Below are positions 1,852 through 5,338 of a DNA stretch of 5,338 nucleotides, in pieces. The stretch's first letter is position 1; each line of letters begins with the position of its first letter. A program made the translations under genes and the position numbers. Origin of the DNA: Candidatus Fermentibacterales bacterium (GTDB lineage Bacteria; Fermentibacterota; Fermentibacteria; Fermentibacterales; JAFGKQ01); the NCBI GenBank assembly GCA_016928495.1, contig JAFGKQ010000163.1, positions 1 through 5,338 on the forward strand, in the 5' to 3' direction. Under the pieces are notes generated by a model. That model did not search any database, was not told where the DNA came from, and was given only the letters and a program-made list of their open reading frames with translations.

Positions 1852-3753
1852 ATGAGAGCAGCAACGGCCCTGAGGTGCCTCGGAGCGCTCCTGCTCCTGG
1901 CCTGCCAGGTCTCCTGGTCGCTCCCGTCGGTGTACGGGCTTCGCGGCCTCTACAGAGTGATCGATGCCAGGACCCCGCCTCCGGCCACCTACTCGATAGC
2001 GCTGATATCGAAGTACCAGTACGCCGGCGTCAGCGATACTGTGCGCCTTCGGCCTCCGGGGTACCCGGACGTCGACACCCTGCTGACCATCTACGATGCC
2101 GAGCACTACCTCGACGCCACTATCCTCGTGGACGTCGGCATCCTGGACTACCTGGAGATCGGGCTGACCGGAACCTACATCGCCAACGTCTACCAGTACG
2201 ACCAGGAGTCCCCCAGGGGCGACTTCGTCGGCTATCTCGACGGTTCGCACGGGTTCGCCGATGTGATGCTGAGCGGCAAGTACAGCCGGGCCATCAAGCC
2301 CTGGCTTACGGTCGGCGGAGCACTCTGGCTGGCCTTCCCGCCCGGGGAGAACTACGTAGACTGCGCGGCCGACTACGACGGCTACTGGTACAGCGGCCAG
2401 CCCAGGCTCCAGACCCGCCGCCCATTCCTGCACACGGACGGCTTCTCCTGGGGCCTCATGGGGCTGGGCACTGCTGTCCACGAACCGGTCGAGGGGCACA
2501 TGAACCTCGGCCTCAGCGGCTTCAGTCAGTCCTGGGAGGACCAGGTCATGGGAAGCGTCAGCGAGTCGGACATCGCCATCGACTTCGGGATAGGCGCGGC
2601 CCTCCCCTCCAGAAGCGCTCTGGTGTACCTCGAATACACAGCGAGGTTCTTCACGGGCCGGGGCGATCAGCCCGGCTACTCCCCGCCGAGCCGGCTTGCC
2701 GGAGGCCTGAGGATACATCAGGACAACGGCGCTTTTCTCGATTTCGCCGGCGTTGTGGGTCTTTGCGGGTCCTTCGACAGACGGGAGGCCGATCCCTGGG
2801 TCACCGGGATGCTGCCGGTTCCGGGAGGGCTGGACGGCGACTGGGGCGTGATCTGCGCCGTCGGCTACGACACGGCTCTCTTCGGAGCCTCCGGAACCGG
2901 GGGAAGCGGAGTCGTGTGCGGCACAATAACGGCATCGGAGACCGGTGAGCCCATTGCGGCCCGGGTCAGCTTCCCCGGGCATGAAGGGACCGGTGCAGAC
3001 TCGACTGCGGCCAACGGCTTCTTCAGCATTCCCATTGGCTCCGGACCGCTGGTCGTGCGAGTGGAGGCCGATGGCTACGTGCCCTACACCTCCACCGTGG
3101 TAGTCCCGGAAGGCGGGACCTGGGCAGTGGACTTCAGGCTCGAGAGGGCTGGACCGGCGCGCGGGATGGCGGCAGGGACGGTCACCTCCCTGTCCACCGG
3201 AGACCCCGTCAGGGCTCAGGTGAGCGTGTCGGGGCTCGCGGATGCAACGGCTTCCTCTTCCGGGAGTGACGGATCCTACAGGCTGGAGCTTCCGGAAGGC
3301 ACCTGGACGCTCCAGGTGGAGGCGCCAGGATTCCTGGGCGCAACCTCCGTGGTCCAGATCACGGCAGGGCAGACCTCCGTGGTTGACTTCGCGGTCAGGG
3401 AGGGCCTGACACAGGGCACGGTCCTCTCCTTCGCGAACATCTACTTCGATTCGGGCAGCGCGACCATCAAAACGGAGTCATACCCGGTGCTGGACGAGAT
3501 CGCAGACCTGCTGCGGCTCAATGCCAACGTGAGGGTCGAGATATCGGGGCACACCGACTCGGACGGCAGCGAATCCTACAACCGCACCCTGAGCGAGAAC
3601 AGAGCCGCCAGCGTTCGGGACTATCTGGCTCAGAAGGGAATAGCGGCCACGAGGATGACGACGGTGGGCATGGGAGAGTCCCGGCCCGTGTCAGGCAACG
3701 ACACCGCCGCCGGCAAGGCCCGGAACCGGAGGATCGAGTTCAGGGTTCTCTGA
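1852..3753 (+). CDS. OmpA-family outer-membrane protein, barrel plus two regulatory-like domains (complete)
   Basis: 633 residues, ATG to TGA, with GAGGTG 5 bases upstream. Residues 1-23 form a Sec signal peptide: Arg2 and Arg8, then a Leu/Ala core. Cleavage is plausible after SWS (residue 23); LLAC at 15-18 is an imperfect lipobox, so a lipoprotein is a less likely alternative. Residues ~47-345 show about 12 amphipathic segments consistent with a small outer-membrane barrel. Two carboxypeptidase-regulatory-like sandwiches occupy ~353-432 and ~438-515. Residues ~521-633 are an OmpA C-terminal domain with GHTDSDG (566-572), Asn577, LSENRA (580-585) and NRRIEF. Asp569 and Arg584 have the 15-residue spacing of the diaminopimelate-binding pair. 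The domain matches the upstream gene's at about 60% identity without gaps over 113 residues by hand count, whereas barrel loops differ. The likely role is an envelope anchor linking outer membrane and peptidoglycan. No substrate or partner can be read from the sequence. Confidence 0.92.
   Translation: MRAATALRCLGALLLLACQVSWSLPSVYGLRGLYRVIDARTPPPATYSIALISKYQYAGVSDTVRLRPPGYPDVDTLLTIYDAEHYLDATILVDVGILDYLEIGLTGTYIANVYQYDQESPRGDFVGYLDGSHGFADVMLSGKYSRAIKPWLTVGGALWLAFPPGENYVDCAADYDGYWYSGQPRLQTRRPFLHTDGFSWGLMGLGTAVHEPVEGHMNLGLSGFSQSWEDQVMGSVSESDIAIDFGIGAALPSRSALVYLEYTARFFTGRGDQPGYSPPSRLAGGLRIHQDNGAFLDFAGVVGLCGSFDRREADPWVTGMLPVPGGLDGDWGVICAVGYDTALFGASGTGGSGVVCGTITASETGEPIAARVSFPGHEGTGADSTAANGFFSIPIGSGPLVVRVEADGYVPYTSTVVVPEGGTWAVDFRLERAGPARGMAAGTVTSLSTGDPVRAQVSVSGLADATASSSGSDGSYRLELPEGTWTLQVEAPGFLGATSVVQITAGQTSVVDFAVREGLTQGTVLSFANIYFDSGSATIKTESYPVLDEIADLLRLNANVRVEISGHTDSDGSESYNRTLSENRAASVRDYLAQKGIAATRMTTVGMGESRPVSGNDTAAGKARNRRIEFRVL
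2908..3396 (+). repeat. Two tandem carboxypeptidase-regulatory-like domain repeats in the second OmpA-family gene
   Basis: Units of roughly 75-80 codons begin near 2908 and 3163. Each has a G-T-(I/V)-T-x-S/E-x-TG-[ED]-PV opening, an RVSFPG or QVSVSG strand, a VEADGY or VEAPGF turn and a VDF-x-(L/V) end. They correspond one to one with the pair in the upstream paralogue, so the domain duplication predates the gene duplication. Confidence 0.78.
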
Positions 3754-3800: not shown

Positions 3801-3838
3801 TTGACTTCCCTTGCCGGCGTTTGCAGGTACAGTATTAG
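3801..3838 (+). promoter_or_regulatory. Possible promoter of the C13 peptidase gene
   Basis: This is the most AT-rich stretch of the 168-bp gap. It holds TTGACT (3801-3806) and TTGCCG (3811-3816) as -35 candidates, and TACAGT (3828-3833) and TATTAG (3833-3838) as -10 candidates. TTGCCG with TATTAG gives a 16-base spacer with 4/6 matches each. The better -35, TTGACT, is 21 bases from TACAGT, too long for a standard sigma-70 promoter. Transcription starting just beyond would give a leader of about 75-80 bases. Confidence 0.35.
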
Positions 3839-3865
3839 TGATAGTTCGGGCAATGGTTCCTGGAA

Positions 3866-3886
3866 TGCGGCGTAGCCCCCGCCGTG
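3866..3886 (+). other. Small hairpin in the leader of the peptidase gene
   Basis: GCGGCG (3867-3872) can pair with CGCCGT (3880-3885), with a G-U at the base, around a 7-base loop TAGCCCC. A further T-G wobble is possible at 3866/3886. It lies 22 bases upstream of the Shine-Dalgarno and leaves it free. No known riboswitch or leader class is recognised and it may be chance in GC-rich DNA. Confidence 0.25.
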
Positions 3887-3908
3887 CAGTGGATGTTTAC
3901 TACATGTG

Positions 3909-3916
3909 AAGGAGGT
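3909..3916 (+). promoter_or_regulatory. Near-perfect Shine-Dalgarno that fixes a GTG start
   Basis: AAGGAGGT is an almost complete anti-16S complement, 5 bases before GTG at 3922. The same frame has a TGA at 3907-3909 that overlaps this site, so no earlier start is possible. The next in-frame ATG (3955) would remove most of the signal peptide. The GTG is therefore the start. Confidence 0.88.
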
Positions 3917-3921
3917 CTGAA

Positions 3922-5338
3922 GTGCGAGCTGCTGTTCTTCTGGTTTCCCTGCTGATGGTGCCCGCGGTGATAGCCTCGGTAGGCAGCCCGAGGGAGGCCG
4001 CCGACCTCGTCGTCACCGAGCTTCTCTCGGGGAGCTACGAGGGCAAGAGCGTCCTCTCGCTGCCCTCCGGGGTCACCGAGGGCCAGCTCGTGGACAGTTG
4101 GCATGTCCAGGTGGAGGCCCCGTTCGATGGTTTCCTCGTCCTTGTGGACGACATCGCCCTGGCGAACTGGGAGCACCCCTGCCGCTGGGTCTTCGTGAGC
4201 TTCGCCGGCGACATGGAGGTCGTCCGCATGCAGACGCCTCCCGTCGCACTTCCCCGGATGACAGTGGAGTACAGCGACCTTCCCGTTCCGGGCCAGGCCT
4301 CCGTGCAGAGCTTCCTCGAGTGGTTCGAGGCCAACCCGAGGGCAGGCAACGACCCGGCCCACACCTTTGCCTTGATCATCTCCGGCGGCGCAAGCCAGGG
4401 CAACAACCACATTCGCTACTACGGCGACGTCCAGTTCATCTTCACCACGCTGCAGGGTGATTACGGCTACACCGACGAGAACATCGTGGTATGCTTCGCC
4501 GACGGCACGAACCCCGCGCCGGACCAGTCGGGAGGGCTCAACTCGAATCCGGACCTGGACAACGACGGTGACACCGACTTCGACTACGACGCGACTCTCG
4601 CCGGAGTCACCAGCGGGTACAACGATATACTCGGCATGGTCAGCAATGACGATCACCTTCTGATCTTCACGACCGACCACGGCGGCAACGGCAAGCTGGG
4701 CTCCGATATCCCTCCCGAGGTCTACCTGAACCTCTGGAACTGGGAGCAGCTCAACGACGACGTGTTCGACGGCTGGCTCGACAACATCGATGCAGCCTCG
4801 ATACACGTCGTGATGGAGCAGTGCTACTCCGGCGGCTTCCTGGAGGAGACCGTTCCGACGACCGGCGGCCAGCCCAGGACCTTCTCCTCGGCGGCCAGCG
4901 GCTACCAGTCCTCCTGGGCCGGGGCCACCTACCCCGAGTACGATGAATGGGCCTACTGGTGGACCGGGGCCATGCACGGCTCCGTCCCTCCCGGCGGCTC
5001 GTACCCCGGCGGCCCGCTTCCGTACGACCCCGACGCCAACAACGACGGGTACGTCGACTACAAGGAGGCCTGGGACTGCGCCTACGACTGGGACTCCTGC
5101 TGCCCCGGCCAGGAGAACCCCCAGTGGGGTGACGATCCTGACAGCTGTGGATCGGACTACTACCTCGGCGGGCTCATACCTACGTCTACGGCCGACCAGG
5201 GCTACGTTGTCCCAGGGCCCTTCTCCGCGGGAGTAGAGGTCAACCCCTTCTCGGGTACCGCCTCGCTGCGCGTCAGCCTGGCCTCGGGCTCCAGAGTGGT
5301 CGTCAGCTTCTTCGATCTCACCGGCCGCATGGTGGACC
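3922..5338 (+). CDS. Secreted C13 (legumain-like) cysteine peptidase with calcium loops and sorting tail (3' partial)
   Basis: 472 codons from GTG, open at the window end. Residues 1-19 are a Sec signal peptide (Arg2, hydrophobic 5-17, VIAS). Residues ~22-103 precede the catalytic part and contain FDGFLVLVDD and NWEHPCRWVFV; this may be a prodomain. Residues ~147-310 match clan CD family C13: strand plus ISGG (148-156), NNHIRYYGD (161-169), NIVVCFADGT (187-196), catalytic His253 in IFTTDHGGNG, and catalytic Cys301 in VVMEQCYSGGF, each after a hydrophobic strand. A DxDxDG loop lies at 211-222 and a canonical EF-hand-type loop at 371-382, suggesting calcium binding. Residues 386-409 are Cys-rich. 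Residues ~439-472 (NPFSG, then FFDLTGRMV) resemble the start of a T9SS type A sorting or FlgD-Ig-like domain. Legumains cleave after Asn or Asp, but specificity here is unknown. The fold and dyad are confident; export by T9SS is inferred. Confidence 0.9.
   Translation, partial: MRAAVLLVSLLMVPAVIASVGSPREAADLVVTELLSGSYEGKSVLSLPSGVTEGQLVDSWHVQVEAPFDGFLVLVDDIALANWEHPCRWVFVSFAGDMEVVRMQTPPVALPRMTVEYSDLPVPGQASVQSFLEWFEANPRAGNDPAHTFALIISGGASQGNNHIRYYGDVQFIFTTLQGDYGYTDENIVVCFADGTNPAPDQSGGLNSNPDLDNDGDTDFDYDATLAGVTSGYNDILGMVSNDDHLLIFTTDHGGNGKLGSDIPPEVYLNLWNWEQLNDDVFDGWLDNIDAASIHVVMEQCYSGGFLEETVPTTGGQPRTFSSAASGYQSSWAGATYPEYDEWAYWWTGAMHGSVPPGGSYPGGPLPYDPDANNDGYVDYKEAWDCAYDWDSCCPGQENPQWGDDPDSCGSDYYLGGLIPTSTADQGYVVPGPFSAGVEVNPFSGTASLRVSLASGSRVVVSFFDLTGRMVD

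Follow-up and report, generated by a model that had tools for sequence, protein, structure and literature searches.

A putative secreted legumain-family (C13) peptidase of Fermentibacterales with an unnamed N-terminal domain

The stretch of DNA analysed here (the window, 5338 bp) encodes a protein that is best interpreted as a secreted legumain-family (C13) cysteine endopeptidase, probably calcium-stabilised, which would be exported as cargo of the type IX secretion system (T9SS) and would carry an N-terminal domain (N-domain) serving as its propeptide or inhibitor. We place the probability of this reading as a whole at roughly 0.7. The best-known legumains are proteases of plants and animals. 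The literature searched contained nothing on bacterial legumains or on a legumain associated with T9SS. A first-pass annotation of the same DNA had proposed an exported C13 peptidase with a His/Cys dyad; the T9SS tail, an EF-hand loop and the N-domain are additions to that description.

Gene, genomic context and distribution

The C13 peptidase gene occupies 3922..5337 of the forward strand, on which all window features described below also lie. It comprises 472 codons from a GTG start, which is preceded by a Shine-Dalgarno-like AAGGAGG at 3909..3915 as read from the sequence. The window is one entire contig (C256) from a 2.3 Mb draft genome that is 81% complete, and the 3' end of the gene is therefore missing, truncated by the contig end. 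Full-length orthologues are mostly 509-526 amino acids long, and orthologues across the order share 51-64% identity with the window protein. The nearest named relatives of the host are Candidatus Fermentibacteria / Hyd24-12 genomes, and the Fermentibacteria are represented in this analysis by metagenome-assembled genomes only. Differences from a 63%-identical orthologue numbered 128, 102 and 204 at codon positions 1, 2 and 3, respectively, which indicates a frame under protein-level selection. This codon-position bias, the match to PF01650, the orthologues across the order and a catalytic dyad kept in 35 of 35 aligned sequences show that the frame is a bona fide gene and not a chance one. On the minus strand, two very long open frames at 1-2982 (994 amino acids) and 3835-5337 (500 amino acids) lie opposite real genes and are shadow frames of GC-rich genes.

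Upstream on the forward strand, 1-1773 and 1852-3753 encode a tandem pair of paralogues, outer-membrane proteins that combine OmpA C-terminal domains with CarboxypepD_reg/PEGA repeats. In several relatives the same OmpA-type outer-membrane family is found downstream of the C13 gene, on the opposite strand. An operon or functional neighbourhood was considered and rejected, as the partner is inconsistent: MatE, EamA, NUDIX, glycosyltransferase and signalling genes are found there in other members.

Orthologues were detected in 31 of the 42 sampled genomes of the order (E<1e-40), with two copies in at least two of them (G009 and G017). More distant relatives, at about 22-35% identity, come from Solidesulfovibrio, Verrucomicrobia, Bacteroidetes, Prevotella, Kiritimatiellae, Lentisphaerae, Anaerolineae and others. 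Most genomes of the order also encode another caspase-fold protein, about 790 amino acids long, which matches the Pfam C14 caspase domain (E 1.9e-12; in G000 on contig C244, L141:1191-3587, minus strand).

The catalytic domain has the sequence profile and predicted fold of legumain

The C13/legumain catalytic domain, at residues 146-417 (4357..5172), is supported by Pfam, an AlphaFold model, and structure and profile matches. In a Pfam scan the window protein matched Peptidase_C13 (PF01650), the sole Pfam family found, at 32.4 bits, which exceeds the gathering cut-off of 22.8 (E 8.8e-8), and an NCBIfam scan of the protein returned no match. A profile built from 35 relatives was compared with PDB sequences. 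The top match was VdiPAL1, a peptide asparaginyl ligase (1.1e-19), and human legumain scored 1.5e-14, so that matches to legumains range from 1.1e-19 to about 1e-14; the match to metacaspase-4 was weaker, at 1e-10. These scores uphold the C13 assignment of the first-pass annotation.

The AlphaFold model has a mean pLDDT of 87.4, with values mainly above 90 in the catalytic core. Its best structural match, for residues 146-417, was human legumain (7fqi_C; Z 23.0, rmsd 2.4 Å, 214 residues aligned), followed by plant legumains and ligases, metacaspases (6w8r, Z 21.8) and GPI transamidase (Z about 20.9). An overlay on legumain had been suggested earlier as a check, and in this predicted model it puts His253 and Cys301 in the legumain active-site framework.

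His253, in the motif TTDHGG (4678..4680), aligns with legumain His148, and Cys301, the predicted nucleophile (4822-4824), aligns with legumain Cys189, where the legumain numbers are derived from chain numbering. Cys301 ends the triplet Glu299-Gln300-Cys301 of the motif EQCYSGGF (4816..4824), which aligns with E-A-C of legumain. Both dyad residues were present in 35 of 35 sequences of the diverse alignment, as was Gly254 after the histidine, and Glu299 in 32 of 35; His253 and Cys301 lie outside the search patterns by which these sequences had been gathered. Predicted strands E245-251 and E293-298 precede His253 and Cys301, respectively. The dyad is thus as first described, in motifs, in numbering and in the strand before each residue.

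The zwitterionic S1 pocket of legumain consists of Arg44, His45, Ser216 and Asp231 (PMC4357240). Arg165 of the window protein (4414..4416) aligns with the Arg of legumain RHQAD, which is Arg44, and Ser331 (4912..4914) aligns with Ser216; each was found in 34 of 35 sequences. The position of His45 is occupied by Tyr166, and no equivalent of Asp231 was placed, the alignment being too weak at that point. The kept equivalents of Arg44 and Ser216 lend indirect support to the Asn/Asp-type protease first proposed. A preference for Asn or Asp is likely, though cleavage specificity may differ from that of legumain insofar as Tyr166 replaces His45 and Asp231 lacks a placed counterpart.

Two loops in the same domain are candidate metal sites. 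A canonical EF-hand loop, DANNDGYVDYKE, lies inside the catalytic domain at residues 371-382 (5032..5067). Its D371, N373, D375 and E382 are near-invariant across phyla in the 35-sequence alignment, and the profile matches the EF-hand protein 1jfj at residues 368-388 (E 0.006). An acidic loop, DLDNDGDTDFDYD, at residues 211-223 (4552..4590) is a probable metal-binding loop, with Asp211 conserved in 32, Asp213 in 29 and Asp215 in 34 of the 35 sequences. These loops suggest that the window protein is probably calcium-stabilised. Calcium dependence has been reported for metacaspases and for RgpB, which belong to the same clan (PMC4357240).

An unnamed N-terminal domain accompanies caspase-fold peptidases

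The N-domain, a candidate propeptide or inhibitor, spans approximately residues 19-125 (about 105 residues; 3976..4296), and when modelled alone it folds at a predicted pLDDT of 89. No match to it was found in Pfam or among PDB sequences, Foldseek returned nothing under E 1, and a second structure comparison gave no Z of 5 or above. Against stefin B (4n6v) the comparison reached Z 3.9 (rmsd 4.2, 71 aligned); cystatin-type matches as a group, at Z 3-4, are too weak to use.

The sequence signature of the domain is a loop, LANWEHPCR, at residues 80-88 (4159..4185). Strict invariance of ANWEHPCR was withdrawn: in the distant set it is circular, since ANW[EA]HPCR was among the two patterns used to collect that set, and among the relatives detected with a profile and no motif, Trp83 and His85 are the only residues that hold. 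For an unbiased sample, 385 genomes were searched by profile. Trp83 and His85 were kept in all seven unbiased relatives read, with Asn82 changed to Asp or Glu in two. The variants found by profile outside the order (AANWEH, GANWEH, FADWEH and WAEWEH) indicate that the Trp and His are fixed and that Asn82 can be Asp or Glu.

The unbiased sample yielded ten N-domain copies from outside the order, and every one of them either shares a protein with a caspase-fold peptidase or is encoded next to one. In seven the fusion partner is a C13 domain. In two more (G221 and G076) it is a divergent protein bearing His-Gly and Cys-His-Ser-Gly motifs; the G076 partner is a sub-threshold C13 match and the G221 partner, with no Pfam match, was assigned to the caspase fold by resemblance. 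In the tenth (G114) the N-domain has a gene to itself, immediately ahead of one that has no N-domain and is called caspase-fold-like from its motifs and a weak profile match (E 0.007).

Free-standing N-domains beside peptidase genes were seen in three lineages, namely Anaerolineae, a gammaproteobacterium and G114. At three near-identical Anaerolineae loci (L078, L080 and L081) a gene for a 120-residue N-domain follows the C13 gene, and in the gammaproteobacterium a gene for a 148-residue N-domain abuts the C13 gene, upstream of it. These peptidase-adjacent copies (L078/L080/L081, L066 and L133; free-standing domains at L078:11295-11672, L066:9824-10285 and L133:1206-1703) occur in other organisms and not beside the window gene. 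No further free-standing copy was found among 394 additional genomes of the class of the Anaerolineae genome. Other free-standing N-domains were located at L087:9815-10297 and L088:9863-10303, and for those of G386 and G387 the draft assembly contains no full-length partner.

Domains of this kind, fused to such proteases or encoded separately beside them, suggest a built-in inhibitor, and a propeptide/inhibitor module is the most likely reading of the N-domain, one that we favour by analogy with some reserve. Adhesion or help in folding are the main alternatives. That the N-domain is a binding or adhesion module, localising the enzyme or its substrate instead of inhibiting it, is rather unlikely. 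Such a role would suit a domain without a recognised family, and it would suit the copies that stand apart from peptidases: a Bacteroidales free-standing N-domain (L089:9959-10681) has a T9SS sorting tail and no peptidase domain, and copies in Cloacimonadota are lipoprotein-like and distant from the C13 gene, which itself was found in one of the two genomes. The association of all ten outside-order copies in the unbiased sample with caspase-fold peptidases speaks against it, as does the placement of the fused N-domain N-terminal to the peptidase, the usual position of a propeptide. Free copies adjoining peptidase genes likewise follow the pattern of protease-inhibitor genes. A more far-reaching version of the propeptide/inhibitor reading is offered tentatively: the N-domain may belong to a new class of regulators of bacterial legumains, one that works in cis when it is a propeptide and in trans when it is a free inhibitor encoded by an adjacent gene, and its conserved A-N-W-x-H loop may present an Asn to the S1 pocket as a pseudo-substrate.

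Asn138 (4333..4335), in the linker between the N-domain and the catalytic domain, is a candidate self-cleavage site. It is invariant in the 26 order members compared and was found in 8 of 20 sequences outside the order. Autocleavage at this residue is a guess.

Export through type IX secretion

The N-terminus, MRAAVLLVSLLMVPAVIAS, was recognised by eye as a Sec-type signal peptide of about residues 1-18 (3922..3975), and a hydrophobic signal stretch is present in every orthologue with an intact start. At the other end, 5218..5337 encodes the truncated start of a T9SS type A sorting domain, identified as TIGR04183 in complete orthologues; three of these scored 28.1-32.7 bits against a cut-off of 23. 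T9SS cargo was recognised by a signal peptide together with a C-terminal sorting domain (TIGR04183/PF18962), and since that domain is incomplete in the window, the case for T9SS export is built on the orthologues. Signal peptide and sorting-domain scores agree with the export proposed in the first-pass annotation. In the host genome TIGR04183 was matched 52 times, mostly above cut-off. Across the 41 genomes of the order that were searched, the SprA model was matched in all (above cut-off in 39), and the PorU model in all at E<1e-30 (above its strict cut-off in 10). Each of these genomes also has C25 peptidases, about 10-31 of them.

With SprA, PorU-like sortases and C25 peptidases in all 41 genomes, the C13 protein is best read as a cargo enzyme of the T9SS and not as its sortase. 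The rival reading, of a transpeptidase or ligase resembling GPI8 or plant peptide asparaginyl ligases, used in surface attachment and possibly as an accessory T9SS sortase, appears improbable. It can draw on the ligase VdiPAL1 as top PDB sequence match, on the fold shared with GPI transamidase chains (Z 20.9) and on PorU, the T9SS sortase, being likewise a member of clan CD. The presence of PorU-like C25 proteins throughout the order argues that the sortase role is filled, and on this ground the C13 protein was rejected as sortase; the window protein itself showed no C25 catalytic domain (PorU, NF033707) in the Pfam and NCBIfam scans. The C13 gene is moreover missing from three genomes of the order of at least 90% completeness each (G006, G012 and G019), which argues that it is not essential to the T9SS. 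The C13 protein is also itself tagged with a sorting tail, as a cargo would be, and relatives in Solidesulfovibrio and Anaerolineae have C-terminal sequence without such a tail.

Two further readings are very improbable. An inactive pseudoenzyme with a retained fold would be compatible with the lack of biochemical data on the subfamily in the literature searched, but conflicts with the conservation across phyla of the dyad, Glu299, Arg165 and Ser331. Membership of the metacaspases/caspases (C14) instead of C13 could appeal to the nearness of metacaspases to legumains in the fold comparison and to the calcium dependence of some of them, but the Pfam scan of the whole protein gave C13 only, the profile favours legumains over metacaspase-4 by the values given above, and the pocket Arg stands at the legumain RHQAD position.

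Proposed mechanism and comparison with known systems

In the mechanism that we propose for the cargo enzyme, the protein would be exported by Sec to the periplasm, where the N-domain would cover or stabilise the active site. The T9SS would then carry it over the outer membrane, and PorU would cut off the sorting tail and anchor or release the enzyme. Removal of the N-domain, perhaps through self-cleavage after Asn138 in the linker, would free the enzyme, which might then cut environmental protein after Asn or Asp. The N-domain would be the propeptide/inhibitor module, which in other bacteria would also be produced on its own, encoded by an adjacent gene.

With legumain, the window protein shares the fold (Z 23), the His-Gly and Glu-x-Cys layout of the dyad, the equivalents of Arg44 and Ser216, and a secretory route. 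Its regulatory domain would be N-terminal, whereas that of legumain is C-terminal, and it differs further in the EF-hand loop in the catalytic domain, the T9SS tail and the Tyr in place of His45. The eukaryotic activation peptide and LSAM are absent: beyond about residue 417, all that follows in complete orthologues is a linker and the TIGR04183 domain. GPI8/PIGK of GPI transamidase shares the C13 fold (Z about 20.9), but evidence of an anchor acceptor or complex was not found for the window protein and the domain layout differs. Gingipains and other T9SS C25 peptidases share clan CD, T9SS secretion, an extra N-terminal domain and a C-terminal sorting domain; the window protein, in contrast, is C13 with no C25 match, and the C25 enzymes of the order are encoded by other genes. 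Calcium involvement has been reported for the RgpB gingipain (PMC4357240).

The gene arrangement recalls SpeB/Spi and the Bacteroides C10 pairs, in which the small proteins co-transcribed with the protease are thought to be its inhibitors (PMC3462683). In both cases a protease gene adjoins a gene for a small protein, whose inhibitory role here would be by analogy. Those proteases are of the papain fold (C10/C47), whereas the small protein in question here is a homologue of the N-domain carried by an enzyme of the caspase fold.

Legumains are known to be controlled by the C-terminal domain of the eukaryotic enzymes and by cystatins. If the propeptide/inhibitor reading is true, the bacterial N-terminal module, fused and free, would be a second, independent way of keeping a legumain inactive. 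It would then also supply small inhibitor candidates for a medically interesting enzyme, and the peptidases would offer new enzymes from which to develop Asx-specific cutting or ligation. The C13 finding points to T9SS-exported proteolysis in Fermentibacteria, and in the literature searched, Fermentibacteria and type IX secretion were not named together in any paper. The number of C25 peptidases in Fermentibacteria is unusually high.
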